From assembly GCA_945889445.1 (NCBI GenBank), contig CAMDBX010000027.1, positions 1 through 45,066 of the forward strand: a stretch of 45,066 nucleotides of DNA, read 5' to 3'. Numbering within the stretch: the first letter of the stretch is position 1; each line of letters begins with the position of its first letter. Source of the stretch: Rhizobium sp. Q54. GTDB taxonomy: Bacteria > Pseudomonadota > Alphaproteobacteria > Rhizobiales > Aestuariivirgaceae. The notes below the pieces were generated by a model. That model searched no databases and was not told where the DNA came from. It was given only the letters and a program-made list of their open reading frames with translations. This document shows positions 18,204 to 34,262 of this stretch, one piece after another. The position numbers and the translations under genes were made by a program.

Positions 18204-19136
18204 TCAGGCCGCTGCCTTGAGCTCGGTCAGCGGCGGCAGCGTCGGCGCAGCCTTCATCACCTCGACGGAGTCGTGGCGGATGTAGTTCTTCTCCATCGCT
18301 TCCTTGATCTGCGCGTCCGTCACCATGCCGGCCTCATAGGCACCCTTGAGCAGGCCATAGAAGAGCTGTTCCTGCTTCGGGTCCGGGTGCTTGGCATAGC
18401 GGCCGAGCAGCGCATGCTCGCCGAACATCTTGCGCCGCATGCGCATGATCCAGCCGATGACGGGAACGAACTCGGTCGGCGTGTAGTCCACCTTGAGGCC
18501 CGTCTTCCACGGCTGGGTGCGGCGGCGGGTGTTGTGGATCATCTTGGTCTTGGGCGTCAGCTTGTCGAAGTCGTTCCACTCGTTCTCGAACACGCCGATG
18601 GTGTTGGGGTCTTCCATCAGCAGCGAAATCCAGTTGTGGTAGTCGCGCTTGCCCTCGAACAGTTCGTTGAAGCTCTTTTCCACGTCCCAGTGCTTCAGCT
18701 TGGCGCAGTCGAGCAGCATGACGGACGAGGCAAAGGCACCGTTCTTGAACTTCGAGCCGCGGCACATGATGGCATTGCCCTGCATGTCGCGGGTCAGCAA
18801 CTCCCACACGTCCTGCACAGCGAACACGTCCGGGTCCACGACCAATGCGCGGCCCTGGTAGCCCATCAGCTGCGGCGGCAGGAAGCGGGTGAGGGTGAAT
18901 GACTGCAGGTCGTTTTCCAGCCACACGCGGTCCACGCCATGGCGCTTGTAGGTCTGCCCGTCGCGCTGCGCGAACCACGGGTAGTTGTCCTTGTTCATGA
19001 TGGTCACGTCGAACTTGTCGGCGTGCGGCGAACGCGTCATCGAATAGGCGGACACGATCGCGCCGATCGACTGCTTGTTGTTCGTCTGGATGAAAATGTG
19101 AGGCCGGGTGGCCCCAGCATTGCCGGTCGAAGCCAT
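18204..19136 (-). CDS. GT-A-like protein of unknown function, copy 1
   Basis: 310 residues. It begins RPHIFIQTNNKQSIGAIVS and carries RALVVDPDVFAV (a D-x-D type metal/nucleotide-sugar motif), FASSVMLLD, and NDFDKLTPKTKMIHNTRRR before a conserved C-terminal HPDPKQEQLFYGLL. The layout recalls GT8-type nucleotide-sugar transferases (DxD near residue 97 and a late metal-binding H), but the family was not recognised with certainty. A clear paralogue is encoded at 22697-23611; many blocks are identical or nearly so (LNEDLQSFT/LENDLQSFT, VVDPDVF, NDFDxLTPxTxMIHNT, TQPWK). First gene of the leftward operon that runs to 12419. The start ATG overlaps CATG with a possible rightward start on the other strand. 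Confidence 0.75.
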   Translation of the reverse strand: MASTGNAGATRPHIFIQTNNKQSIGAIVSAYSMTRSPHADKFDVTIMNKDNYPWFAQRDGQTYKRHGVDRVWLENDLQSFTLTRFLPPQLMGYQGRALVVDPDVFAVQDVWELLTRDMQGNAIMCRGSKFKNGAFASSVMLLDCAKLKHWDVEKSFNELFEGKRDYHNWISLLMEDPNTIGVFENEWNDFDKLTPKTKMIHNTRRRTQPWKTGLKVDYTPTEFVPVIGWIMRMRRKMFGEHALLGRYAKHPDPKQEQLFYGLLKGAYEAGMVTDAQIKEAMEKNYIRHDSVEVMKAAPTLPPLTELKAAA

Positions 19137-19171
19137 GACAATCCCCGAAACTATTGCTTACAACGGCTCCC

Positions 19172-19199
19172 TGTATCATGTAGTGACCGACGCGTCCAA
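19172..19199 (-). promoter_or_regulatory. Possible promoter of the leftward glycan operon
   Basis: Reading leftward, TTGGAC (complement of 19194-19199) and GATACA (complement of 19172-19177) are 16 bases apart and 36 bases before the start codon at 19136. Weak -10; prediction by eye. Confidence 0.3.
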
Positions 19200-19226
19200 G
19201 GCCGTGTCTGCGCGGCTCTCTGTCAC

Positions 19227-19240
19227 AAGGCTTAAGCCTT
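19227..19240. promoter_or_regulatory. Perfect palindrome AAGGCTTAAGCCTT between divergent genes
   Basis: A 14-bp perfect palindrome in the AT-richer stretch between the leftward operon and the rightward ELM1-like gene, just upstream of the likely start codon of the latter. Candidate operator for divergent control; could be chance. Confidence 0.35.
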
Positions 19241-20340
19241 TGCAAATACAGGGGAATTTCTACCTGAAGAACAGCCATCCGAGAACCTGGGTCCTGCACA
19301 GCCCGCATTCGGGCGACAACACCCAGCTGCGTGCACTGGCGGCAGCACTGGGCTGGCCCTGTGAGTCGAAGCGCCTGAGCTACCGCCGGCAAGAGGGCTT
19401 GTTGCGTGTGCTGAGCCTGCCCACGCTGGCGGGTGTCGATCTTGCTGCCTCGAGCCCGATCGAAGCGCCCTGGCCGGACCTCGTCATCTGCTCGGGCCGC
19501 GGGGCGGAGGCAGTGGCCTTCTGGCTGAAGCAGCAGAACCCGCACCTCCGCATCGTCTTCGTCGGCACGCCGTGGTCAGGCCTGTCGCGGTTCGACCTCG
19601 TCATCACCACGCCGCAATACCGCCTGCCGCAGGCGCCCAACGTGCTGCACAACCTGCTCCCCTTGCATGACGTGACGCCGGACCGGCTGTCCGCCGAGAC
19701 CGTCCGCTGGCAGCCGCGGCTCGGCACGCTGCCGCGCCCCTTCACCGCCCTGCTGGTGGGCGGCGCGAGCGGACCCTATCTCTTTACGCCGGCCTCCGCC
19801 AGGCGCCTGGGGCGCGAGGCATCCGCCGTGGCGCGCGCGGCTGGCGGCTCGCTTCTGGTCACCACCAGCGCCCGGACGGGTGACGCCGCCGCCGATGCGC
19901 TGCAGTCGGCGATCGACGTGCCGTGCTTCTTCCATCGCTGGCAGTCCGACGCGCCAGACAACCCTTTCCACGCCGTCCTCGGCCTCGCGGATCGTATCAT
20001 CGTGACGGCGGACTCGATCTCCATGATGTCGGAGGCCGTCAGCACCGGTAAACCGGTGCTGCTCTTCGACATCGAGGAGGGCCCCTATGCCATGCGGGCC
20101 GACGCCGGGCGCCCGCGCATCGGCTGGCGCGGTCGCAGCGCCAATGCGTCCATCTTCCGCCTGCTGATCAATCACGCGCCGCCGCGCTTCTCGCGCGACC
20201 TGCGCGTGGTGCATCACCAGCTCGTCACCTCCGGCCGTGCGCAGTGGCTCGGCGATCCGCCAGCCAAGGCCTCGCCGCTGCCGCTGGAAGATGCGCTGGC
20301 CCGCGCCGTGGCTCGCATCCGCGGGCTTTTTGGCCTATGA
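19240..20340 (+). CDS. ELM1-like (DUF1022) GT-B-fold protein, copy B
   Basis: About 366 residues. Family landmarks: RTWVLHSPHSGDNTQ at the start of the domain, PWPDLVICSGRGAEAV, FDLVITTPQYRLPQAPNVLHN, ALLVGGASGPY and VTADSISMMSEAVSTGKPVLLFD. The frame is open back to ATGs at 19135 and 19108, but the extra residues use codons unlike the rest, would overlap the leftward gene's start, and have no counterpart in the other two copies, so TTG at 19240 is preferred (AAGG nine bases upstream). Compared with copies A and C the tail includes an extra GWRGRSANASIFRLLINHAPPRF segment. It is followed after 36 bp by the ATP-grasp gene. Function presumed glycosyl transfer in the surface glycan pathway; not proven for any bacterial member. 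Confidence 0.78.
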   Translation: MQIQGNFYLKNSHPRTWVLHSPHSGDNTQLRALAAALGWPCESKRLSYRRQEGLLRVLSLPTLAGVDLAASSPIEAPWPDLVICSGRGAEAVAFWLKQQNPHLRIVFVGTPWSGLSRFDLVITTPQYRLPQAPNVLHNLLPLHDVTPDRLSAETVRWQPRLGTLPRPFTALLVGGASGPYLFTPASARRLGREASAVARAAGGSLLVTTSARTGDAAADALQSAIDVPCFFHRWQSDAPDNPFHAVLGLADRIIVTADSISMMSEAVSTGKPVLLFDIEEGPYAMRADAGRPRIGWRGRSANASIFRLLINHAPPRFSRDLRVVHHQLVTSGRAQWLGDPPAKASPLPLEDALARAVARIRGLFGL

Positions 20341-21772: not shown

Positions 21773-22690
21773 ATGACCATCCAGTTTCCCAATGCCTATG
21801 ATCTTCGTACCGGCCTGCGCCGCCTGGTTTCTGCCGCCGCCAGTGCCCTGCCGCGCGACAAGGGCGTTGGTGCCGAGCGCTGGTTCCGTGGCTATGAGGA
21901 GAAGAAGAAACTCGAGGCCGCGGATGCGGTTGTGGTATCCTTCGGCAAGAGCGGCCGCACCTGGCTGCGCGTCTTGCTGTGGCGCTATTTCTCGCTGAAG
22001 AACGGTTATGCCAGCGACAGCATTTCCGGCTTCGACGAGTTCCGGCAGAAGCGCCGGGGGGTTCCGGTCCTCTTCTTCACCCACGACAATTACCTGAAGG
22101 ATTTTGAGGGCGAAGCCGGCAAGGCGGCGCTCTATGGCAGGTTGCCCGTGGTGCTCCTGGTGCGCGACCCGCGCGATACGGCGGTCTCACAGTTCTTCCA
22201 GTGGAAGCACCGCATCGTGCCGCGCAAAAAGGTGATCAACGACTATCCGCTGCAGGATGTCGATCTTCACGCTTTCATCACGGGTGCGCAGTCCGGCATC
22301 CCGAAGATCGTTTCGTTCATGAACGACTGGGCGGCGGAGGCCGAGAGCTTTCAGAAGCTTCTCGTCGTGCGCTACGAGGACCTGCGCGCCGATACGAAGC
22401 GCGAGCTTCGCCGCATTCTTGATTTCCTTGGCCAGCAGGCAACCGAGGCCGATCTCGACGACGCCGTCTCCTTCGCCTCGATCGACAACATGCGTCGCAT
22501 GGAGCGGGAGAATGCTTCCAAGGTCACCGCCCATCGCAGCATGAAGCCGGGCGATGCCAGCGATCCGTCGAGCTACAAGGTGCGGCGCGGCAAGGTCGGA
22601 GGCTGGACCGACTATGTCAGCGAGGAGCAGGCCGAAGCGATCGACCACCTTGTGGCAGAGACATTGTCCCCTGTCTTCGGATACAGGTAG
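21773..22690 (+). CDS. Sulfotransferase domain protein
   Basis: 305 residues, PAPS-dependent sulfotransferase (Sulfotransfer_1 type). The 5'-phosphosulfate loop is VVSFGKSGRTWLRVLLWRY, the 3'-phosphate-binding region is VVLLVRDPRDTAVSQFFQWKHR, and a late KVGGWTDYVSEEQAEAID matches the G-x-x-G-x-W-x-x-x-x-S/T-x-E-Q-x-x-x cofactor-binding motif near the C-terminus of the family. It would transfer sulfate to a hydroxyl of the surface glycan or lipid. It stands 67 bp after the ATP-grasp gene; its stop is 6 bp from the stop of the convergent gene and no hairpin separates them. No PAPS-making genes are in the window. Confidence 0.9.
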   Translation: MTIQFPNAYDLRTGLRRLVSAAASALPRDKGVGAERWFRGYEEKKKLEAADAVVVSFGKSGRTWLRVLLWRYFSLKNGYASDSISGFDEFRQKRRGVPVLFFTHDNYLKDFEGEAGKAALYGRLPVVLLVRDPRDTAVSQFFQWKHRIVPRKKVINDYPLQDVDLHAFITGAQSGIPKIVSFMNDWAAEAESFQKLLVVRYEDLRADTKRELRRILDFLGQQATEADLDDAVSFASIDNMRRMERENASKVTAHRSMKPGDASDPSSYKVRRGKVGGWTDYVSEEQAEAIDHLVAETLSPVFGYR

Positions 22691-23664: not shown

Positions 23665-24687
23665 TCAACTTTTGACCCGGGCAAGCTGACGCAGCCTCTG
23701 GCCGACCACCACCGCATCATCCGGCAGTGGAGATGCCGGAACGCGCGGCGTCTGCCCCAGCGGCACCGCGTGCCCGCCGCGATAGAGCAGTGCGATGGCA
23801 GCGCCCAGGTCACGCGGCCGCAGCAGGTCAGTTGCCCGCTGCACCACGCCGCCGATCCCGCCGGGCGGCGGTGATTCGGCAATAGTGAGCGGTTTTCCGC
23901 AGCGCGCCACCTCGATCAGCATGGACAGGCTGTCGGCGGTCACGGTGAAGCTGTCGCCCATGGCCAGCAGCCCGGGATAGGGGTTTTCGACCCCTGCCGC
24001 TCCCCAGGTGTAAAGCCGGTCTTGCGGCCTCAAACCCGCCTTGAGGGCCGCCGCCACCCCTGCCGGGGTGCGGCGCGACGTCGCCGCATAGATCATTCCG
24101 TCCGCGGCATAGCTCCTGCTCATCTCGTCCAGAACGTGGCGCACGAAGCCAGGCTCCAGCCTCCGCTGCCCCATGTCACCCCCCACCAGCAGCACGTTGA
24201 GCGGCCGCGGCAGGGCGGAGAATTCGGGGCCGAAGTGCTGGCGTGCCGCAGCAAGGCGGGCAGGGTCGAGCCCGATCAGCGGCATGGCAATGGGCAGCAC
24301 GTTGGGCCGCCCGCGGTTGCGGTAGTAAGGCGGCAGCACCACGAGGTCGAAGTCATTCCACCGGCCCTTGGGGGCGTTCAGCAGGGCAATGCGGGTCTTT
24401 CCGCCTGACTGCTGCTTGATCCACAGCGCCACGCAGGAGAGTTGCCGGCCAATGGCCAGCACCACCTCGGGCCAGGGCCCTTCCAGCGGGTCGGAGGCGG
24501 CACGGTCGACATGTTCGAGCGAGGGGCCGATGCCCGGCTTCGCAGCCATCTGGTCGGGGCGGATCGCGATGTTGCGGACAACGGCCTCAAGGCCGGAGGC
24601 CGCGGCGGCGCCCGCCACCTGTGCATTGTCCCCCGCCTTCGGCCCGGTCAGCACCCACAGTTGCGGCAGAATCCCCTCCCTTGGCAA
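23665..24687 (-). CDS. ELM1-like (DUF1022) GT-B-fold protein, copy C
   Basis: 340 residues, the most divergent of the three copies. Landmarks: QLWVLTGPKAGDNAQ, PWPEVVLAIGRQLSCVALW, FDLVVLPPYYRNRGRPNVLP, NVLLVGGDMG and VTADSLSMLIEVARCGKPL. The annotated start is TTG at 24687; the ribosome-binding-like GGGAGGGG lies just inside the frame, so the true start may be a few codons later at a rare codon. Divergent from the surface-carbohydrate gene to its right and first in a two-gene leftward unit with the GT-A-like gene. Confidence 0.78.
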   Translation of the reverse strand: MPREGILPQLWVLTGPKAGDNAQVAGAAAASGLEAVVRNIAIRPDQMAAKPGIGPSLEHVDRAASDPLEGPWPEVVLAIGRQLSCVALWIKQQSGGKTRIALLNAPKGRWNDFDLVVLPPYYRNRGRPNVLPIAMPLIGLDPARLAAARQHFGPEFSALPRPLNVLLVGGDMGQRRLEPGFVRHVLDEMSRSYAADGMIYAATSRRTPAGVAAALKAGLRPQDRLYTWGAAGVENPYPGLLAMGDSFTVTADSLSMLIEVARCGKPLTIAESPPPGGIGGVVQRATDLLRPRDLGAAIALLYRGGHAVPLGQTPRVPASPLPDDAVVVGQRLRQLARVKS

Positions 24688-24778
24688 ACACCGGCTGGAT
24701 TAGCCCATATTCGGCCGCCACGCGAGGCTGGGCGGCCCGATGGTTGATTAAGCGGTGCCGCTATGCCATCCCACCTCG

Positions 24779-26194
24779 ATGCGAGCGGAACACGGCCCGG
24801 TGCGGGAAACAGGCAAGCATGAGGCGGATAGGTCGCGAACACTGGTGATCCCGGTGGAAACGATCAACCGTGAACTCGACGCCAAGTTGCATCTGGCACT
24901 GCGCGCCGTCATGCGCGGCTGGAAGGTCATCCTTGGTGGCCGCGCCAACATCAACCACTTCATCCCGCAGCTGCCGCCCTCCATTTACATCTCCAAGGGC
25001 CTGCGCGTCGGCAACAAGCACATCCTGCGCTTCATGGAGGGCTTCGGCCACGTGCCCGTTGCGCTGGACGAGGAGTCTCTCATCCGCCAGTCGGACGAGG
25101 CGCTGCTGATGATGCTGGACGACGAGACCTTCAACCGTCCGCGCCTGCTCTTCGCCTGGGGCCAGAGCAACGCCGATGTGTGGAGGCGCTTCAAGGGCTA
25201 CAGCGGCACGCCCATCTTGGAGATCGGCAATCCGCGCATGGACCTGCTCAGGCCCGAACTCGCGGCTTATTTCACGCACCAGGTGCAGTCGATCCGCGAG
25301 CGCTTCGGCGACTTCGTGCTGGTGTCGACCAACTTCAGCATGGTCAATCATTTCATCCCCGAGCATGTGCGCTTCGCCACGGCAACCGATGCCGATGCTG
25401 AGCGGGCGGACGCGCTGCGTGATGGTCTCAAGGCCCACAAGAAGCTGATCTTCGAAGCCTTCATCGCCGCCATTCCGGACATGGCCCGCGCCGTGGCCCC
25501 GATGACGCTGGTCATCCGTCCTCACCCCTCCGAGAACCCGAAGACGTGGGAGGCCGCTGCGGTGGACCTGCCCAACGTGAAAGTCATTCACGAGGGTCCC
25601 ATCGGCCCATGGCTCATGGCGGCCCGCGGGCTGGTGCAGAACGGCTGCACCAGCGCGGTGGAGGCTGGCGTGGTCGGAACCCCGGCGTTGGCCTTCCGGC
25701 CGCATGTGTCCGACCAGTTCGAGGTGGAGCTCTCCAACCGCGTCAGCCGCGACTGCCGCTCTCTGCCCGAACTGATAGTGGCCCTGAAGTCGCTGCCTAC
25801 CAAGGGTCCTCTGCCGGAGGCGCAGCTGGCCTATCTCCGCACCCATATCGCTTCGGTGGACGGTGCCTTCAGCTGCGACCGGCTGCTCGACGCATTGGAC
25901 AACCATGCAGACCGCCTCATAGCCCCGCCGCCGCGTGGCGGCCTCGCCATGGCCGCGACCAGGCTCGGCCATTTCAGGCGCTATCCGCTGCGCGACACCA
26001 TCAAGGGCCTGCGCAAGATGGGCTCCGCCAAATCCTATCGCGCCCACAAGTTCCCCGGACTGCCGGAGGACGCCGTCACCAGCCGCATTGAGCGCCTCAG
26101 GGCGGTCCGTCCGGAATTGCCATTCGTCACCGTCACCCGGCTGGCTGACGGCATCTATGCGATTACCACCGGGGCACCCGGGACGAGAGAGTAG
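24779..26194 (+). CDS. Surface carbohydrate biosynthesis protein (GT-B-like, CDP-glycerol/polysialyltransferase-like fold)
   Basis: About 471 residues. The N-terminal part has RTLVIPVETINRELDAKLHLAL and KGLRVGNKHILRFMEGFGH; the C-terminal part has LVIRPHPSENPKTWEAA, NVKVIHEGPIGPWLMAARGLVQNGCTSAVEAGVVGTPALAF, a donor-site-like block shared with surface polysaccharide proteins of the TIGR04396 kind and, more loosely, with glycerophosphotransferases. Homologues accompany nonulosonate and capsule genes. The start is uncertain: GTG at 24755 or ATG at 24779; the homologous region begins about 20 codons later. It is the first gene of a rightward run that ends with the NeuA-like gene at 30197. Probably a glycosyltransferase; donor unknown. 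Confidence 0.75.
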   Translation: MRAEHGPVRETGKHEADRSRTLVIPVETINRELDAKLHLALRAVMRGWKVILGGRANINHFIPQLPPSIYISKGLRVGNKHILRFMEGFGHVPVALDEESLIRQSDEALLMMLDDETFNRPRLLFAWGQSNADVWRRFKGYSGTPILEIGNPRMDLLRPELAAYFTHQVQSIRERFGDFVLVSTNFSMVNHFIPEHVRFATATDADAERADALRDGLKAHKKLIFEAFIAAIPDMARAVAPMTLVIRPHPSENPKTWEAAAVDLPNVKVIHEGPIGPWLMAARGLVQNGCTSAVEAGVVGTPALAFRPHVSDQFEVELSNRVSRDCRSLPELIVALKSLPTKGPLPEAQLAYLRTHIASVDGAFSCDRLLDALDNHADRLIAPPPRGGLAMAATRLGHFRRYPLRDTIKGLRKMGSAKSYRAHKFPGLPEDAVTSRIERLRAVRPELPFVTVTRLADGIYAITTGAPGTRE

Positions 26195-26270: not shown

Positions 26271-27362
26271 ATGCACTCCATTCGTATCCTCGGCGCCGGC
26301 TCGATCGGCAATCACCTTGCCAACGCGGCGCGCTCCTTCGGCTGGCGCGTGACCCTGACCGACATCGACCCCGCAGCGCTCGAGCGCACCCGAACCTCCA
26401 TCTATCCCCAGCGCTACGGCACGTGGGACGAGGAAATCGTGCTGAAGGACTCCCGCGCCGCCATGAATGAACCGGCCGACGTGGTGTTCATCGGAACGCC
26501 ACCCGACAGCCACATCGCGCTGGCCAATGCCGTGCTCGACCAGGTGACGCCGAATGTGTTGCTGCTGGAAAAGCCGCTGGCAGGACCCGACCTCGCGGGC
26601 TGCGCCGAGCTTCTGGCGCGGGTGAAGGCCAAGGGCGTCTTTGGAGCTGTCGGCTACAATCACACGCTGGGCCAGAACACCGTGCTGGCCGATGGCCTGC
26701 TCAAGGCGGGCGAGATCGGCTCGGTCTCCACCATTTCCGCCCGCACGCGTGAGCATTGGGGCGGCATCTTCAAGGCCCATCCCTGGCTCTCGGGCCCATC
26801 TGATTCCTACCTGGGCTTCGCCGCGCGCGGCGGCGGCGCCACGGGCGAGCATTCGCACGGCATCAACATGTGGCAGCACTTCGCCAATCTCATCGGCGCG
26901 GGCCGCGTGGCGGAAGTCACTGCAGTGCTCGACATGTTTCAGGATGGCGGTTGTGACTATGACCGCCTCAGCTATGCCGTGCTCAGGACCGAGAACGGCC
27001 TCGTCGGCGACGTCATCCAGGACGTCGTCACCGAACCCGCCGACAAGTCCTGCCGCATCCAGGGCCAGAAGGGCTTTCTCGAGTGGCGCGTCAACCACAG
27101 TCCGGGCAATGACTCGGTCGCGCTGGGGCTCGGCAGCGACCGCAAGGAAACCCTCATCGCCAAAACCCGGGCGGATGACTTCAAGGCCGAGATTGCCCAC
27201 CTCGAACAGGTGATGGCGGGCAAGGTCCAGCATTCGCCCATCGCGCTCGAGCGCGGGCTCGACACCATGATGGTGATCGCCGCCATCTTCAAATCCCACC
27301 ACAGTGGCCGCCGCGTCCAGATCGACTGGAGCAAGGGCTACGTGACTGACGCCATTCGCTAG
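26271..27362 (+). CDS. Gfo/Idh/MocA-family oxidoreductase
   Basis: 363 residues. N-terminal Rossmann fold with ILGAGSIGNHLANAARSFGW (G-x-G-x-x-G) and the family signature LLLEKPLAGP (E-K-P); the C-terminal alpha/beta domain contains AVGYNHTLGQN and GGATGEHSHGINMWQHFANLIGA, the latter replacing the usual D-x-G-x-H-x-x-D with a histidine-rich E-H-S-H-G-I-N-x-W. Such enzymes oxidise, reduce or epimerise (nucleotide-)sugars with NAD(P). The ATG at 26271 has GGGA seven bases upstream; an in-frame ATG at 26241 is possible. It is 10 bp from the NeuB-like gene, so it probably prepares or modifies a precursor or product of that synthase. Confidence 0.88.
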   Translation: MHSIRILGAGSIGNHLANAARSFGWRVTLTDIDPAALERTRTSIYPQRYGTWDEEIVLKDSRAAMNEPADVVFIGTPPDSHIALANAVLDQVTPNVLLLEKPLAGPDLAGCAELLARVKAKGVFGAVGYNHTLGQNTVLADGLLKAGEIGSVSTISARTREHWGGIFKAHPWLSGPSDSYLGFAARGGGATGEHSHGINMWQHFANLIGAGRVAEVTAVLDMFQDGGCDYDRLSYAVLRTENGLVGDVIQDVVTEPADKSCRIQGQKGFLEWRVNHSPGNDSVALGLGSDRKETLIAKTRADDFKAEIAHLEQVMAGKVQHSPIALERGLDTMMVIAAIFKSHHSGRRVQIDWSKGYVTDAIR

Positions 27363-27372
27363 CGGAGCATCC

Positions 27373-28905
27373 ATGCGCAAGCCCTTCTCGTTTGAAAATC
27401 TCTTCGTCTACGATCTCGCCAACAACCACCAGGGCGACTTCGCGCACGCGCGCAACATCGTGTCTGCCGTGGGCTCGGTGAACCGCGAGGGCAGGATCAA
27501 CGGCGCCCTGAAGTTCCAGTTCCGCCAGCTCGACAGCTTCATCCATCCGGACTTCAAGGGCCGCGCCGACCACAAGTATGTGAAGCGCTTCTCCGAGACG
27601 CGCCTCGAGATGAAGGATTTTGCCAAGCTCGCCGAGCATGTGCGCGCCGAGGGCCTTCTCACCATGTGCACGCCCTTCGACGAGGAATCGGTCGACGTCA
27701 TCTGCGACATGGGCCTCGACATCATCAAGATCGCCAGCTGCTCGGCCGATGACTGGCCGCTGCTCGAGAAGGTGGCGCGCGTCAACAAGCCGGTCGTCGT
27801 CTCGACGGCGGGCCTGCGCACCGACCAGATCGATGCGCTGGTCAGCTTCTTCGAGATGAACCGCACTGAATTTGGCCTCATGCACTGCGTGGCGCTCTAC
27901 CCCACGCCTGACGACAAGCTGCAGCTCAACCGCATCGCCGAGATGCGCGAGCGCTATCGCGGCATTCCCATCGGCTGGTCCACGCATGAGGACCAGGACA
28001 ATACCTCGGCCGTCCAGATCGCCTATGCGCTGGGCGCCCGCATGTTCGAGCGCCACGTCGGCCTCAACACCGAAAAGCACAAACTCAATACCTATTCCTC
28101 GACACCCGAGCAGCTCGAGACGTGGATCGCCGCCTTCCACGCTGGCCGCGCCATGCTCGGCAACGAGGAGCGTCCGCCGGTCTCGCTCGAGGAGCGCCAG
28201 ACGCTCCATGACCTGAAGCGCGGCGCCTATGTGAAGCGCGACGTGAAGAAGGGCGAGGTGCTGACCCGCGCCGACGTGTTTTTCGCCATGCCGCTGCAGG
28301 ACGGCCAGCTGACCTCAGGCCATTGGCGCGAGGGCCTCGTGGCCGACCAGGACTATGTCGCCAACGCGCCGTTGTCGCCGGCGATCGGCGGCCTGGGCCA
28401 GAGTGACGAACAGCTGGTCTACCAGATCATGCTGCAGGTCCGCGGCATGCTGGCAAAGGCCAACGTCCACATCAATTCGGATGCCTCGATCGAGATCTCG
28501 CATCATTATGGGCTGAAGCGCTTCCGCGAATATGGCGCGGTGATCATCACCTGCATCAATCGCACCTATGCCAAGAAGCTGGTCATCCAGCTGCCGCGCC
28601 AGAAGCACCCCTATCACTTCCACAAGCAGAAGGAAGAAACCTTCCAGCTGCTCGACGGCGACCTCGAGATCACCAAGGAAGGTGCGAAGTCCCGCATGGT
28701 GCCGGGCGACACCTTCCTGGTTGAGCCCAACCAGTGGCACAAGTTTGCAACGCTCGATGGCTGCATCTTCGAGGAAGTGTCGACGACCCACTTCAACAAT
28801 GATTCCTTCTACGAGGATCCGGGCATCGCCCAGATGCCGCGCGACGACCGCAAGACCAAGGTCGACAACTGGCTCGGCTATTTCCGTGACAAGCACACGC
28901 TTTGA
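27373..28905 (+). CDS. NeuB-family nonulosonic acid synthase with C-terminal cupin domain
   Basis: 510 residues, against about 340-350 for plain NeuB. Residues 10-260 are the PEP-condensing TIM barrel (DLANNHQGD, ALKFQ, CTPFD, DIIKIAS, HCVALYPTP, GWSTHE, FERHVG). Residues 275-340 are the antifreeze-like/SAF domain with the substrate-binding arginine region LKRGAY. Residues 380-475 are a cupin: HPYHFHKQKEETFQLLDG fits H-x-H-x4-E-x6-G and MVPGDTFLVEPNQWH the second motif. Metal-site histidines H205 and H228 are kept, but the usual E of AEIGxNHxG is D14, the E of KIxSGE is S124, SDH is S-T-H and EKH is E-R-H. It would condense PEP with a hexose or hexosamine to a 9-carbon acid, yet the changes argue for an unusual substrate. 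Translationally coupled to the HAD gene (20-bp overlap). Confidence 0.85.
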   Translation: MRKPFSFENLFVYDLANNHQGDFAHARNIVSAVGSVNREGRINGALKFQFRQLDSFIHPDFKGRADHKYVKRFSETRLEMKDFAKLAEHVRAEGLLTMCTPFDEESVDVICDMGLDIIKIASCSADDWPLLEKVARVNKPVVVSTAGLRTDQIDALVSFFEMNRTEFGLMHCVALYPTPDDKLQLNRIAEMRERYRGIPIGWSTHEDQDNTSAVQIAYALGARMFERHVGLNTEKHKLNTYSSTPEQLETWIAAFHAGRAMLGNEERPPVSLEERQTLHDLKRGAYVKRDVKKGEVLTRADVFFAMPLQDGQLTSGHWREGLVADQDYVANAPLSPAIGGLGQSDEQLVYQIMLQVRGMLAKANVHINSDASIEISHHYGLKRFREYGAVIITCINRTYAKKLVIQLPRQKHPYHFHKQKEETFQLLDGDLEITKEGAKSRMVPGDTFLVEPNQWHKFATLDGCIFEEVSTTHFNNDSFYEDPGIAQMPRDDRKTKVDNWLGYFRDKHTL

Positions 28906-29494
28906 CGCGGTGATCTTCGACTTCGACGGAACGCTCGTCGCCTCGGCCCCGGCCAAGCGACAGGCGTTCTTCGACATCTTCCCGGCGCAAGCCGCGCCCA
29001 TCGTTGCAGCCGTGCTGGCGGAGGATCCCGATGGCAGCCGCCACGTGGTCATCCCGCGGATGATCACGGGCGCACGCGCGCAGGCGATCGCCCTTGCCGA
29101 TGAGGATTACGTCACGCGCTATGGCGAAGTCTCAGAGCAGGCGGTGGCCGTCGCACCGGAACTTCCCGGCGCCACGGAACTGCTCAGGCGGCTGTCGCCC
29201 CTGATGGAACTCCATGTCTGTTCCAACACGCCGCAGGACACTGTCCGCCGCCACGTCGCGGCGCGCGGCTGGAACCCTTATCTCAAGGGTGTCGACGGCT
29301 ACCCGACGACCAAGCGCGACAGGATCGCCGCCGTCATCGCCGCTCATCGCCTTGCTCCATCGCGCGTCGCCATGGTGGGCGACGGCATTTCCGATGAAGA
29401 GGCAGCCGCCGCCAATGCTTGCGCCTTTTTCGCAATCCGCGCCCCGGAAGACCTGATGCGCGCCGGGCGGTCACTGGAGGAACGCAATGTTTGA
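28886..29494 (+). CDS. HAD-superfamily phosphatase
   Basis: About 202 residues from GTG 28886 (VTSTRFDAVIFDFDGTLV). HAD motif I is D12-F-D14-G-T, motif II the serine or threonine of CSNTPQDT, motif III a lysine in YPTTKRDR, motif IV VAMVGDGISDEEAAAANA (G-D-x3-D). A helical cap lies between motifs I and II, as in beta-phosphoglucomutase-type (subclass C1) phosphatases. The position between NeuB-like and NeuA-like genes suggests that it removes phosphate from a nonulosonate-9-phosphate, as in Kdn or Neu5Ac-9-P pathways, where a HAD enzyme does this step. No ATG start is available; GTG 28886 lies inside the NeuB gene and gives the expected N-terminus. Confidence 0.82.
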   Translation: MTSTRFDAVIFDFDGTLVASAPAKRQAFFDIFPAQAAPIVAAVLAEDPDGSRHVVIPRMITGARAQAIALADEDYVTRYGEVSEQAVAVAPELPGATELLRRLSPLMELHVCSNTPQDTVRRHVAARGWNPYLKGVDGYPTTKRDRIAAVIAAHRLAPSRVAMVGDGISDEEAAAANACAFFAIRAPEDLMRAGRSLEERNV

Positions 29495-30197
29495 AGGCCG
29501 CCGCGTGCTCGTCGTGGTGCCCGCCCGTGGCGGGTCCAAGGGTGTGAAGCTCAAGAACCTGCGCGAGGTGGGCGGCGTGCCGCTGGTGGCGCTGGCGGGC
29601 CATGTGGCCAGGGCGCTGCCCTGGGTCGACCGCGCCGTCGTCTCGACCGACCATGAGGGCATCGCCCGCGTGGCGGAGGAAGCAGGCCTTGCCTGCCCCT
29701 TCATGCGGCCGGTGGATATTTCCGGCGCCATCATCAGCGACTGGCAGGTGCTGATCCATGCGCTGACCGAAATGGAGACGCTGGACGCCGTCACCTATGA
29801 CGTCGTGATCATGCTGCAGCCCACCTCGCCCGGCCGCACGCCGGAGCATGTCACCGCCACCATGGAGCATCTGGTGAAGGGTGGCTTCGATGCGGTGTGG
29901 ACGCTGAGCGAGACGGACTCGAAAGCCCATCCGCTGAAGCAGCTCAACGTGTCGCCCGAGGGCGGCCTCTCCTATTATGATCCGGCGGGTGCGAAGATCA
30001 TCGCGCGCCAGCAATTGACGCCCGTCTACCACCGCAATGGCATCGCCTATGCCATCACGCGGGACTGCCTCGTCGATCAGAAGTCGATCATGGGGGCGAA
30101 GCCCGGTGCCGTGGTAGTCGAGGGCAATCTCCCCAACATCGATACCGAGCTTGATCTCGACTGGGCGAACTTCCTCATCGCCCGCGGCAAGGCCTAG
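29487..30197 (+). CDS. Acylneuraminate cytidylyltransferase-like protein (CMP-nonulosonate synthetase)
   Basis: 236 residues, full length for NeuA/LegF/PseF enzymes. Motif 1 VPARGGSKGVKLKN (residues 11-24) binds CTP, LQPTSPGRTPEHV is the second conserved block, HRNGIAYAITRDCL the third, and NIDTELDLDWANFLI the C-terminal metal/sugar site (I-D-x-x-x-D-x-x-x-A). It activates a nonulosonic acid with CTP to the CMP-sugar used by glycosyltransferases. The start overlaps the HAD gene by 8 bp, and its stop codon shares the bases CTAG with the stop of the convergent gene. The exact sugar (sialic, legionaminic, pseudaminic, Kdn-like) cannot be told from this sequence. Confidence 0.88.
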   Translation: MFEGRRVLVVVPARGGSKGVKLKNLREVGGVPLVALAGHVARALPWVDRAVVSTDHEGIARVAEEAGLACPFMRPVDISGAIISDWQVLIHALTEMETLDAVTYDVVIMLQPTSPGRTPEHVTATMEHLVKGGFDAVWTLSETDSKAHPLKQLNVSPEGGLSYYDPAGAKIIARQQLTPVYHRNGIAYAITRDCLVDQKSIMGAKPGAVVVEGNLPNIDTELDLDWANFLIARGKA

Positions 30198-30919
30198 CTG
30201 AACGTCCGGATCATGTCGCCGATGCGGGTGACGGGCCCCACCTTCCTGATGCCGCCCTGCGGCATGTAGCGGGCCAGCAGCGCCATCTGCTTCTCGTTGA
30301 GTTCGCGGCGCAAGTGCCGCCACACCTGCTGCTTCTCCGCCTCGCTCAGCGTCTGCTGGTGAAACTGGAAGTCCGTCGGCCTGTCCTTTGTCATCGATCC
30401 GCCGCCATGCGCCTGGCGCACTTCGTAGCTGCCGCGGCTCATGTCGCCAAGCTTCGCCCAGTCCGCCGTCAGCTGTTCGAGGCTGGGCTGCGCGTGTCCG
30501 GGCAGGGGCACAACATCGAGGAAGTTGATGGTCTCCAGCATCACCGCGGGCCTGGCCGTCATGTCCTCGTAATAGGCGGCGTGCTTCTGGCGCGCGGCGC
30601 AGTCGCTGAAGTAGCGGATGTTCTCGATGAAGCCGCGATACTCCTTGTAGTTCTTCTCCGCCGCACGAACGAAGGTCTCCAGCGGGTCGCGCAGCAGGAT
30701 CAGCACCTTGTCCTCAGGTCCGGTCTGGGCCAGCAGCGGCTTGCTCTTGTCGGGCTTGGCACCCTTCCTGGCGTTGTGGGCGCGGCGGAACACCGGCTCG
30801 AGCCCGCAATCGGCCTTGATCAGCACGTCCTTTCCCGGCGTCTTCACGCCAAGATAGTGCTCCATGCAGAAGCGCAGCCAGTTCAAGCCGCTGCGCGGTG
30901 CCGAGACGACAAAGATCAT
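30194..30919 (-). CDS. Sulfotransferase-like protein, short form
   Basis: 241 residues. The 5'-phosphosulfate loop is VVSAPRSGLNWLRFCMEHYL (residues 4-23) and the 3'-phosphate region is VLILLRDPLETFVRAAEKNY. The remainder is helical, with a C-terminal QQTLSEAEKQQVWRHL segment usual in bacterial sulfotransferases. It would sulfate a glycan or lipid using PAPS. It is the last gene of a leftward group (exporter, sulfotransferase, this gene) and ends on the CTAG shared with the NeuA-like gene. Confidence 0.8.
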   Translation of the reverse strand: MIFVVSAPRSGLNWLRFCMEHYLGVKTPGKDVLIKADCGLEPVFRRAHNARKGAKPDKSKPLLAQTGPEDKVLILLRDPLETFVRAAEKNYKEYRGFIENIRYFSDCAARQKHAAYYEDMTARPAVMLETINFLDVVPLPGHAQPSLEQLTADWAKLGDMSRGSYEVRQAHGGGSMTKDRPTDFQFHQQTLSEAEKQQVWRHLRRELNEKQMALLARYMPQGGIRKVGPVTRIGDMIRTFS

Positions 30920-31667: not shown

Positions 31668-33380
31668 TCATGTCTGGGCGATCCGGGCCTCGCTTGCCAC
31701 CCATGTGGCGTGGCCGTTCTCCACCTCGTAGAGGCGGTCGGCGATGGCCGTCCAGGCCTGGCGATGGGTGATGACCACGATGGTGTAGCGGTTGCGCAGC
31801 GCGGCGATGTTGCGCACGATGTCCAGTTCGGTCGCTGGGTCCAGCGCGCTCGTCACCTCGTCGAGGATCAGCACCTCGGGGTTGGTCACCAGCGCACGGG
31901 CCAGCGAAATGCGCTGGCGTTGCCCGCCGGACATCTTGCCGCCCATCTCGCCCACGCTGCTCTCCAGGCCTTCGGGGAGGTTGGCGACGAAGTCGGAGGC
32001 CTCTGCCTGGCGCAGTGCCTCGTAGACCATCTCGTCGCTGATTTCCGGGTCGCCGAAGGTGATGTTCTCGCGCACGTCGGCGTGCAGCAGGTTCAATTCC
32101 TGCGGCACATAGCCGATCTTGCGCCGCCACTTGAACAGGTCGATCTCGGTAAGCGGCACGCCATCGATGCTGATGCGCCCGCGCTGCGGCTGGTAGAGGC
32201 CGATCAGCAGGTCGATGATCGTCGTCTTTCCGGCACCCGAGGGGCCCTTCAGCACGGTGATGCGCCGCGCCGGAATTTCGATGTTGACGCCGGAGATGAT
32301 GGCGCGCTCGCCGTGGGAGAACGACACATCCTCGAAGCGGCAGGCATCGGCCAGCATCGGCACGCGCGTGCCGGGGTTGTCCTCGCGGTTGGCGTCGGCG
32401 AGCGCGATCTGCTCGACCATGCGCACATATGAGCGCTCATATTTCACCGACTGTTGCACCGCTTTCTGCACCTTGGAGATGATGTCGTTGATCTTGAGGA
32501 AGATCACGCCGATCACCACGATCTCGGGCAGGGTCACGTTCCATGACGTGTAGGCGAGGTAGGCGGCAATGGTGATGAGCAGCGTCACCACCACCTCGTT
32601 GCCGAGGTTGAAACCGAGCTTGGCCACCTCGCCGGTGATCAGCGCGCGGCGGAGCTTCTTCAGCGTGCGCCGGAGCGGGATCAGCATCGGCTGGAAGCGG
32701 TGCATCGCCTTCAGCGCCTTCATGTTGGCGAGCAGGTCGACGATCTTCACGGTCAGGTGTGCCGTGGTATCGGCCTCGCGCCGCCCGGCGGCACGCGAGA
32801 TCTTGATGAGGCGGTTCATCGCCGCGCCCACGGTCACGCCCACCGCGATGGAGGCCAGCGCCAGCTGCCAGTTGTAGAGCAGCGCCACCGCACCCAGCAG
32901 CACCGCCTGGGCGATCTGCGCCAGCACCTGGGCTGCCAGAAGATAGGCCTGGCTCGCCCGCGTCGCGTCATTGGCGATGGCGGCGGCGAATTTTCCGGCC
33001 TGCTGGTCGGCATAGAAGCGCCAGCTGGCGCCGAACAGCGAGCTGATGAGGCGCTCCCTGAAGCCGATGGCGATGTCGGCCGATACGACCGCCGCGTAGG
33101 ACAGCGCTGCGAAGGAGATGACGGCCTTGAGCACGATCGCCCCGGCAATCAGCAGCACCAGCGTCTTGAAGTCGGGGGTGATGCCCACCCAGGCGATCAT
33201 CCGGTTGGCGAAGTCGCCGCTCTGCGCCTGCGTATCGGCCTGGCCCAGCAGCGCGCCGGCCGCCGGCAACAGCGCGCCGATGCCCACCGCCTCAACGGCC
33301 GCAGCCGCGAGCAGGCTCAGCAGCACCAGCACCGACCGCAGCCGGTCGCCCTGCAGGAATATCCTGAAGATCATCTTCAT
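31668..33380 (-). CDS. ABC transporter, fused membrane and ATPase domains (MsbA/PglK-type exporter)
   Basis: About 570 residues. The N-terminal half has six membrane spans beginning LVLLSLLAAAAVEAVGIGALLPA, the wording found in lipid-linked oligosaccharide flippases such as PglK. The C-terminal half has Walker A LKGPSGAGKTTIIDLL, signature MSGGQRQRISLARAL, Walker B VLILDEVTSALD and the histidine of VVITHR. Homodimers flip lipid-linked glycans or lipids to the periplasm. The ATG at 33380 (MKMIFRIF) gives the usual N-terminal length; a TTG at 33422 would add 14 residues. Set among three sulfotransferase-like genes, the exporter is the best candidate for moving the finished glycan unit across the inner membrane. 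Confidence 0.88.
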   Translation of the reverse strand: MKMIFRIFLQGDRLRSVLVLLSLLAAAAVEAVGIGALLPAAGALLGQADTQAQSGDFANRMIAWVGITPDFKTLVLLIAGAIVLKAVISFAALSYAAVVSADIAIGFRERLISSLFGASWRFYADQQAGKFAAAIANDATRASQAYLLAAQVLAQIAQAVLLGAVALLYNWQLALASIAVGVTVGAAMNRLIKISRAAGRREADTTAHLTVKIVDLLANMKALKAMHRFQPMLIPLRRTLKKLRRALITGEVAKLGFNLGNEVVVTLLITIAAYLAYTSWNVTLPEIVVIGVIFLKINDIISKVQKAVQQSVKYERSYVRMVEQIALADANREDNPGTRVPMLADACRFEDVSFSHGERAIISGVNIEIPARRITVLKGPSGAGKTTIIDLLIGLYQPQRGRISIDGVPLTEIDLFKWRRKIGYVPQELNLLHADVRENITFGDPEISDEMVYEALRQAEASDFVANLPEGLESSVGEMGGKMSGGQRQRISLARALVTNPEVLILDEVTSALDPATELDIVRNIAALRNRYTIVVITHRQAWTAIADRLYEVENGHATWVASEARIAQT

Positions 33381-33539
33381 GCGTTGGAAAGCACCGATCG
33401 AGCGCCAAAATCGCGGCAGCAATAGCCCGTCCGGCAGGGCTGCACAATGGCTCGGCCTTTGGGCCAGGCCGGGTGCCTCAAGCGTTGCGCAACCCGGTGG
33501 CTGCCCCTATGCAAGAGCCACCAGCGGGAGCCCGGCGCC

Positions 33540-34262
33540 GTGATCGTCAACCACCAGCACAAGTTCATCTTCCTTAAGGTCAGCAAGACCGGCGGGTCCT
33601 CGGTCGAGGCCTTTCTCCGCCGCTTCTGCGTCCCGGGCGACATCGTCACCTGGCTCGACGATGATGAGGAACAGGCGATCAGGGGCACTGGCGCCTGCCT
33701 GCCCATGGGCTTTGCGAAGCCGGCCGCCGGCGTGCCCCCGCTCGCCCGGCTGCTGATGGCCTTCAACCACCGCAAGACGCTGCGCCGCCACGGCCTGTCG
33801 CCGCATGCCGGCGCGGCACGGGTGAAGCGCTACGTGGGTGATCGGGTGTGGGGGGATTACGAAAAATTCTGCGTCGTCCGCAACCCGCTGGACCGCAGCG
33901 TCTCGCAGTTCTTCTGGACCGCCGCCAACCGCGGCTGGGAGGATGCGGCAACCCATTTCCATGTCCGCTTCGACGAGTTCCTGCAATCGAATGATTTCCG
34001 CCGCCTCAACGAAAAGGGCCGTGACGTCTATGCCATCGATGGCCGCGTAGTGGCCAACCGCGTGCTGCGCTTCGAGACGCTCGAGCAGGATCTTGGCCGC
34101 ACCATGCGTGATCTCGGCATCGACACGCCGTTGGAACTTACCCGCTTCAAGTCCACCCAGCGGCCGAAGGGCGATTTTGCTGCCATGCTGAATGACCGGC
34201 AGCGTCAGGTGATCAGGGATACATTCGCCTTCGATATCGAACACTTCGGCTACGTGGTCTGA
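33540..34262 (+). CDS. Sulfotransferase family 2-type protein
   Basis: About 240 residues from GTG 33540 (VIVNHQHKFIFLKVSKTGGSSVE). The loop KTGGSSVE is the 5'-phosphosulfate site and FCVVRNPLDRSVSQFFW the 3'-phosphate site. The start was chosen because the product of 30986-31657 begins in the same way (MIISHERRFILVKSRKTASTSIE) and GGGAG lies about ten bases upstream; the frame is open further back to 33447 but that part has no counterpart. Divergent from the exporter gene and convergent with the GT92-like gene, whose stop is 2 bp away. Confidence 0.82.
   Translation: MIVNHQHKFIFLKVSKTGGSSVEAFLRRFCVPGDIVTWLDDDEEQAIRGTGACLPMGFAKPAAGVPPLARLLMAFNHRKTLRRHGLSPHAGAARVKRYVGDRVWGDYEKFCVVRNPLDRSVSQFFWTAANRGWEDAATHFHVRFDEFLQSNDFRRLNEKGRDVYAIDGRVVANRVLRFETLEQDLGRTMRDLGIDTPLELTRFKSTQRPKGDFAAMLNDRQRQVIRDTFAFDIEHFGYVV

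Follow-up and report, generated by a model that had tools for sequence, protein, structure and literature searches.

The window, a stretch of 45,066 nucleotides from Rhizobium sp. Q54 (contig CAMDBX010000027.1, positions 1 to 45,066), encodes a 510-residue protein in which a NeuB-type barrel is joined to a cupin, with an oxidoreductase gene directly upstream and phosphatase and cytidylyltransferase genes directly downstream. The features are listed below with the evidence for each.

24755..26194, + strand: TIGR04396 surface carbohydrate biosynthesis protein (302 bits, above cut-off)
26271..27362, + strand: Gfo/Idh/MocA oxidoreductase, 363 aa, with E-K-P at 100-102 (PF01408/PF22725, invariants of alignment A3, AF2 model, Foldseek)
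27373..28905, + strand: NeuB/D-lyxose-isomerase-type fusion protein, 510 aa (ORF, Pfam, conservation)
27397..28302, + strand: NeuB-type TIM barrel and weak SAF-like linker of the fusion, aa 9-310 (PF03102, 3g8r, 4ipi, Foldseek, column counts)
28405..28902, + strand: predicted D-lyxose/D-mannose ketol-isomerase type cupin of the fusion, about aa 345-510 (PF07385, Foldseek, profile, active-site residues)
28886..29494, + strand: HAD-IA phosphatase (PF00702; GTG start at 28886 chosen by us)
29487..30197, + strand: PseF/NeuA-like cytidylyltransferase, a putative CMP-ulosonate synthetase (PF02348, PDB NeuA matches)

The fusion ATG lies 10 bases past the stop of the Gfo/Idh gene and is preceded by GGAG, the HAD gene overlaps the end of the fusion by 20 bases, and the ATG of the cytidylyltransferase gene overlaps the HAD gene by 8. 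The HAD protein scores best, though under the cut-offs, with phosphoglycolate phosphatases, and the TIGR03584 score of the cytidylyltransferase is likewise below cut-off. The AF2 model of the Gfo/Idh protein (pLDDT 95.9) matches many sugar dehydrogenases about equally in Foldseek; reading a substrate from the fold was dropped, the matches being generic (scyllo-inositol dehydrogenase, YjhC, RgNanOx, GFOR).

The TIGR04396 protein is possibly the transferase. Sulfotransferase-like ORFs flank these genes, namely a PF00685 sulfotransferase at window positions 21773-22690, a weak, below-cut-off sulfotransferase match at 30194-30919 and an ORF at 33447-34262 that resembles the sulfotransferases by eye, which suggests a sulfated surface glycan. 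Two copies of PF06258 (Mitochondrial fission ELM1) occur in the surface-glycan region (19108-20340 and 23665-24687), and part of an 811-aa ORF at another locus, L129, looks PF06258-like by eye. Nearby on the opposite strand, 31668-33422 encodes an ABC transporter comprising transmembrane and ATPase portions, which might export a glycan or lipid.

The fusion ORF is conserved in other genomes at 41-95% identity, and its relatives are encoded in at least 471 stretches, the cupin being shown for part of them. The original prediction had proposed a search for other NeuB-cupin fusions and their neighbours, and such fusions proved widespread: all of the 80 named loci, which are the best-scoring 80 of the at least 471 confirmed relatives, carry the cupin, and the neighbouring genes recur with it. 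Because the 80 are the best-scoring, conservation counts favour close relatives. Assembly error as the origin of the fusion was ruled out by its presence in 80/80 kept loci and in 19 genomes besides that of the window (six loci from the 19 have sequences identical to records among the named loci). Record titles of the 80 loci name Alpha-, Gamma- and Deltaproteobacteria, Nitrospirae, Planctomycetota, Verrucomicrobiae, Marinimicrobia and Halobacteriovorax. Full-text searches of open-licence PMC papers returned no description of a NeuB-cupin fusion, an account elsewhere being possible, and a search of open-licence papers for carriers with known glycan structures returned nothing usable.

We divided the relatives by identity and neighbourhood into two groups, labelled A and B in this analysis, of which group B (L046, L048-L051, L053, L055) is the more distant at 41-44% identity. 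Column counts are based on 100 fusion-clade rows less five exact copies, giving 95 distinct rows, of which 85 are group A (the window among them) and 10 group B; L039, a copy of L109, was excluded, and L055 is without the cupin. An AlphaFold model of the fusion built from 19 sequences has a pLDDT of 82.9 and a pTM of 0.52, the latter leaving the arrangement of the halves undefined. The Foldseek matches of this model are 3g8r and NeuB/PseI structures first and then the D-lyxose isomerases 3kmh, 2y0o, 3mpb and 7nzo-q (ranks 13-22, E 2e-11 to 1e-10). From their length and from the cupin profile search described below, we infer that the isomerase matches cover the C-terminal half.

In the N-terminal half, PF03102 (NeuB) matches aa 45-266 with 146 bits against a cut-off of 22.1, and 19/19 members of alignment A1 match it at E 0.001; the SAF score is 17 bits against a cut-off of 21, with 7/19 members matching at E 0.001. 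Among solved sequences the nearest is 3g8r from Chromobacterium violaceum (E 1.7e-95), and structures of N. meningitidis NeuB come next. Residues were mapped by HMMER alignment to 4ipi, the R314A mutant of N. meningitidis NeuB (chain number = native + 2), for which the site residue list was taken from the accessible part of PMC6795526. NeuB residues T110, F112, K129, S132, S154, Y186, S213, H215, E234 and H236 are kept as T100, F102, K119, S122, S144, Y176, S203, H205, E226 and H228, respectively, which confirms the predicted barrel with its two metal histidines (H205 and H228), and K47 and Q49 were paired by eye with K53 and Q55 since the HMMER gap adjoins them. The PEP and metal residues K47, Q49, T100, K119, S122, S144, S203, H205, E226 and H228 are kept in all lettered rows of both groups (85 group A, 10 group B), K47/Q49 being gapped in one group A row.

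The changes from NeuB to the fusion are E25 to D14, G133 to C123, E134 to S124, N184 to A174, D214 to T204, D247 to N239 and R314 to M306. The placement of D14, S124 and T204 at E25, E134 and D214 agrees with the original prediction, whereas its reading of E-R-H as a departure from E-K-H fails, as N. meningitidis NeuB itself reads E-R-H. Position 14 is D in 83/83 lettered group A rows and E in 10/10 group B rows. Serine at position 124 is a trait of the clade (94/95 distinct rows), and the possibility that the usual glutamates stand at shifted positions was not borne out, SCS aligning to SGE free of gaps. The N184 counterpart is A or S in the fusion clade, and at position 306 the 95 distinct rows have M, I or F, with R in none. 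Two further NeuB site residues, N74 and F288, correspond to R64 and D280, both variable in the clade. According to the accessible part of PMC6795526, R314 of N. meningitidis NeuB contacts the N-acetyl group of ManNAc and the R314A mutant is inactive.

By the alignment, the NeuB half keeps most of the PEP and metal residues, with changes mainly among those predicted to hold the sugar. According to the sections of PMC7371886 at hand, Neu, Leg and Pse synthases have conserved surroundings of PEP and C1 and a variable sugar region; positions 110, 129, 131, 132, 182 and 184 surround PEP, and 132, 182 and 184 are less conserved. The suggestion that altered residues mean altered condensation chemistry is not supported, because among the PEP and metal residues that were mapped only N184 (A174) and E25 have changed. 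N184 varies between NeuB classes according to the same sections (PMC7371886), and D14 is still a carboxylate.

Loss of the SGE glutamate is common among 39 non-fusion NeuB rows, a non-random set found by similarity to the fusion and including three identical pairs, in which 12 rows have E in the E134 column, 15 have D, 9 have S and 3 have L. In 14 of these rows (12 distinct), R at position 51 occurs together with S-G-H-E; E134 is found in none of the 14 (S in 9, D in 5), and the R314 column is R in 0/13 readable rows (N or S), 7 of the 13 having R one residue earlier, at the A305 position of the fusions. The remaining 25 rows have R in the R314 column in 17 of 23 readable cases, with G in 5 and K in 1. 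A tree built by a quick method splits the fusions, 3g8r and L055 from all 39 others with an SH-aLRT of 100; the branch separating group A has a support of 59.

Other joinings of NeuB occur in the comparison set. L148/L160, L149/L028 and L150/L017 encode NeuB fused to another domain, COG1082-like by eye, with S-A-D in place of S-G-E, S at the R314 column and R51 with S-G-H-E; in these fusions and their copies, NeuB is again coupled to what may be a sugar isomerase. L143-L147 carry about 350-520 residues before NeuB in one frame, resembling by eye an FAD amine oxidase or UDP-galactopyranose mutase.

The C-terminal half matches PF07385 (D-lyxose isomerase) with 31.8 bits against a cut-off of 20.8, and Cupin_2 at aa 407-459. 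All of 20 cupin halves from members match PF07385 and also the general Cupin_2 profile, and a profile of these 20 finds 2y0o (2.1e-15) and 7nzo (2.2e-13). Quercetin dioxygenase cupins score near the isomerases in this search (1.9e-13, over about 46 positions only) and are absent among the 50 Foldseek matches listed for the fusion model. More specifically, the Mn- or sugar-binding residues of the Thermofilum isomerase include K62, H75, H77, K86, E88, H143, E156 and D163, and mutation of the counterparts of K86, E156 or D163 abolishes isomerase activity, according to the available portion of PMC8378251. In an alignment read by eye, the first seven correspond to K402, H415, H417, K420, E422, H456 and E468, each of which is present in 85/85 distinct group A rows. 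The four metal ligands are among them, which upholds the claim of a complete cupin and excludes loss of the metal site in group A. The first motif stands as predicted (H415-x-H417-x4-E422-x6-G429), and the second reads P-G-D-x9-H, not x8.

Two features depart from the known isomerases. The D163 counterpart is N475, a column that in group A holds N in 63 and D in 13 of 85 rows, with an invariant D477 two residues past it; and the Mn ligand H415 is Q in 8/9 group B rows having the cupin. The invariant cationic residues K401, H412, R493 and K494 are not part of the known isomerase site; at 401 and 412 the two solved isomerases that were aligned have S/A and C, and their alignments stop before 493. 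By modelled fold, profile and active-site residues, we assign the cupin to the D-lyxose/D-mannose ketol-isomerase type. It resembles the solved isomerases 2y0o, 7nzo-q and 3kmh in fold, four metal ligands and counterparts of K62, K86 and E156, and is unlike them in its fusion to NeuB, in N475 for D163 and in the extra invariant K401, H412 and R493-K494-T495.

The genes around the fusion form a recurring cassette of Gfo/Idh oxidoreductase, fusion, HAD phosphatase and CMP-transferase. The neighbour profiles derive from the same 80 loci, and the counts denote a homologue anywhere in the stretch unless given as adjacent. Where the upstream flank exceeds 1.3 kb, a Gfo/Idh homologue occurs in 69/71 loci, and in 64/71 it is the adjacent upstream gene on the same strand; for loci with more than 3 kb downstream, the CMP-transferase homologue is found in 53/57 and the HAD homologue in 43/57, being missing in 14. 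All three accompany the fusion in 26/36 loci that have flanks longer than 5 kb on either side, and a TIGR04396 homologue in 12 of the same 36. In 10 control loci of two other NeuB classes (not classical NeuB), Gfo/Idh and HAD homologues are found in none and the CMP-transferase in 6; neighbourhoods of other NeuB classes, read by eye, were not decisive. Clustering of the genes up to 6 kb away yields, by eye, no family of aminotransferase- or acyltransferase-like proteins common to more than 9/80 loci. Group B differs: Gfo, HAD and CMP homologues were found in 0/10 loci, and an acetolactate-synthase-like ThDP enzyme adjoins the fusion in 7/10. In L048, of this group, a glucose-1-phosphate cytidylyltransferase also adjoins.

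In the genome of the window (completeness 99.6%), NeuB has a single match, and NeuC (1e-10), PseG (1e-5) and PseB (1e-10) have none. These absences, like the domain identities, residue conservation and cassette, were computed. Across the 11 group A genomes searched, which are all that genome searches found and confine this comparison to group A, the fusion is the sole NeuB, without NeuC and PseG, in 8; the other 3 have further NeuBs together with NeuC and/or PseG matches, the PseG match of one (G350) being only partial and below cut-off. The Fisher p of 1/165, calculated by hand, overstates the evidence because 7 of the 8 fusion-only genomes belong to one genus.

The closest solved structure and several described pathways provide a frame for interpretation. 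3g8r, titled 'putative spore coat polysaccharide biosynthesis protein E', falls in the same clade as the fusions (quick tree, SH-aLRT 100) and shares with them SCS, STHE and the lack of R314; it differs in being a 350-residue chain without a cupin, in grouping within B and in having E at the position of D14 of the window protein, and we found no function test of it. NeuB, PseI and LegI have in common with the fusion the barrel and most PEP and metal residues, whereas the fusion has E134, N184, D247 and R314 replaced and a cupin added, in a genome without matches to NeuC, PseG or PseB. According to the accessible part of PMC9000132, sialic acid production in Serratia marcescens strains whose KDN outweighs Neu5Ac about 20:1 requires a NeuB that carries a COG1082 isomerase/epimerase domain. 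Compared by description, the Serratia KL1/KL2 NeuB is likewise a synthase with a possible sugar isomerase, the isomerase domain being of another family. The Kdn route of Bacteroides and algae runs, in the portion of PMC6200933 available, from Man-6-P and PEP to Kdn-9-P, followed by a phosphatase and then CMP-Kdn synthetase. This route, likened here by its steps and not by synthase sequence, shares the logic of synthase, phosphatase and CMP-transferase, and as described in that portion includes no fused isomerase and no Gfo/Idh protein (PMC6200933). The gene set of the BT1714-type Kdn pathway, synthase, phosphatase and CMP-transferase together, is present in the window.

The fusion is real and conserved and is best read as combining a ketose isomerase and an ulosonate synthase in one chain, and we consider it probable that this protein (P0001) makes a Kdn-like, non-acetamido acid for surface glycans. 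Three elements of the original prediction, bifunctionality, isomerisation by the cupin and a different sugar, are supported in this reading by the PF07385-type cupin and the predicted sugar-site changes; altered condensation chemistry, as noted above, is not. We are less confident of the exact sugar than of a bifunctional, non-acetamido enzyme, for which the simplest candidates would be mannose/fructose or their 6-phosphates. The cupin would interconvert a ketose, or its phosphate, and an aldose with a free C2-OH, using Mn2+ as D-lyxose/D-mannose isomerases do, and the NeuB barrel would join that aldose to PEP in the ordinary metal-dependent NeuB reaction, yielding a 3-deoxy-2-ulosonic acid with OH instead of acetamido at C5. 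The HAD enzyme would probably remove the phosphate, the PseF-like enzyme would attach CMP to the ulosonate, and surface-glycan transferases would use the CMP-ulosonate; the Gfo/Idh protein may make or modify the sugar by oxidation or reduction. We infer the two activities, their order, any channelling, the phosphate and the sugar.

A ketol-isomerase delivers only an aldose having a C2-OH. Since the cupin would need this hydroxyl and the loss of R314 would remove the N-acetyl contact, both halves point to a non-acetamido sugar, and the genome data, with 8/11 lacking NeuC and PseG, agree. A sugar without a C2-acetamido group should give a product carrying OH at C5, as Kdn does. We refrain from calling the product Kdn outright mainly because of the Gfo/Idh protein: plain Kdn would not need one, so the product may differ from it.

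Several observations count against this explanation. Known D-lyxose isomerases act on unphosphorylated sugars, yet the cassette has a phosphatase. The sugars tested with the Thermofilum isomerase were unphosphorylated in the accessible part of PMC8378251. Also counted against it are the change of D163 to N475, Q for H415 and the different gene neighbours in group B, the low pTM of the fusion model, the 14/57 loci missing HAD, the variable R64 and D280, the nearness in score of quercetin dioxygenase cupins, and the origin of 7/8 fusion-only genomes in one genus.

The invariant K401, H412, R493 and K494 outside the known isomerase site speak for a related but somewhat unlikely alternative, in which the same two-step chemistry acts on a sugar that is not a mannose/fructose-type hexose, for example D-xylulose converted to D-lyxose and giving a C8 acid, or a Gfo/Idh-made keto-sugar giving an undescribed ulosonic acid. 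D-lyxose is the namesake substrate of the cupin family, and the Gfo/Idh homologue, not needed for Kdn, is the most constant neighbour (69/71 testable loci). By analogy, the Serratia parallel and the Man-6-P route would instead point to Kdn.

It is unlikely that the cupin is non-catalytic or regulatory, or an epimerase acting later on the ulosonic acid, with the NeuB half receiving its aldose from elsewhere. All metal ligands and K402, K420 and E468 are present in 85/85 group A rows, which a bare binding module would not need, and the nearest fold in the modelled structure is that of a ketol-isomerase. In favour of such a role, 3g8r (350-residue chain) and L055 (362 aa) fall in the clade of the fusions and have no cupin in the available sequence, one metal ligand is changed in group B and the D163 counterpart is out of register. 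That the protein is an ordinary synthase of sialic, pseudaminic or legionaminic acid whose cupin is merely decorative is highly improbable despite the PF03102 match and the PseF-like CMP-transferase next door, as the fusion scores far under the equivalog cut-offs for N-acetylneuraminate synthase (TIGR03569, 136 of 400 bits) and PseI (TIGR03586, 130 of 340 bits), lacks R314 and E134, occurs in a window genome without a NeuC, PseG or PseB match and has within 6 kb, by eye, no single aminotransferase- or acyltransferase-like family shared by more than 9/80 loci.

The reading of the fusion as isomerase and ulosonate synthase bears on how acidic surface sugars are predicted from genomes. According to the available sections of PMC8053191, the synthase serves to predict the type of nonulosonic acid, and of the known routes only that to Kdn does not branch from UDP-GlcNAc. 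Synthase-based prediction would call this clade sialic, pseudaminic or legionaminic acid synthases, yet 8 of the 11 group A carriers searched have no second NeuB and neither NeuC nor PseG. More tentatively, we hypothesise a widespread CMP-ulosonate pathway that does not start from UDP-GlcNAc, in which a Gfo/Idh-derived keto-sugar would pass to the fused isomerase-synthase, the HAD phosphatase and the CMP-transferase to give a bacterial surface sugar not yet known, with the ThDP carboligase-like gene of group B (7/10 loci) providing a second route to such a ketose; the open-licence papers searched do not describe it. If the reading as isomerase and synthase is right, the fusion would be a one-protein catalyst from ketose to ulosonate, and its cassette would add a recurring set of four genes by which several bacterial phyla make acidic surface sugars.
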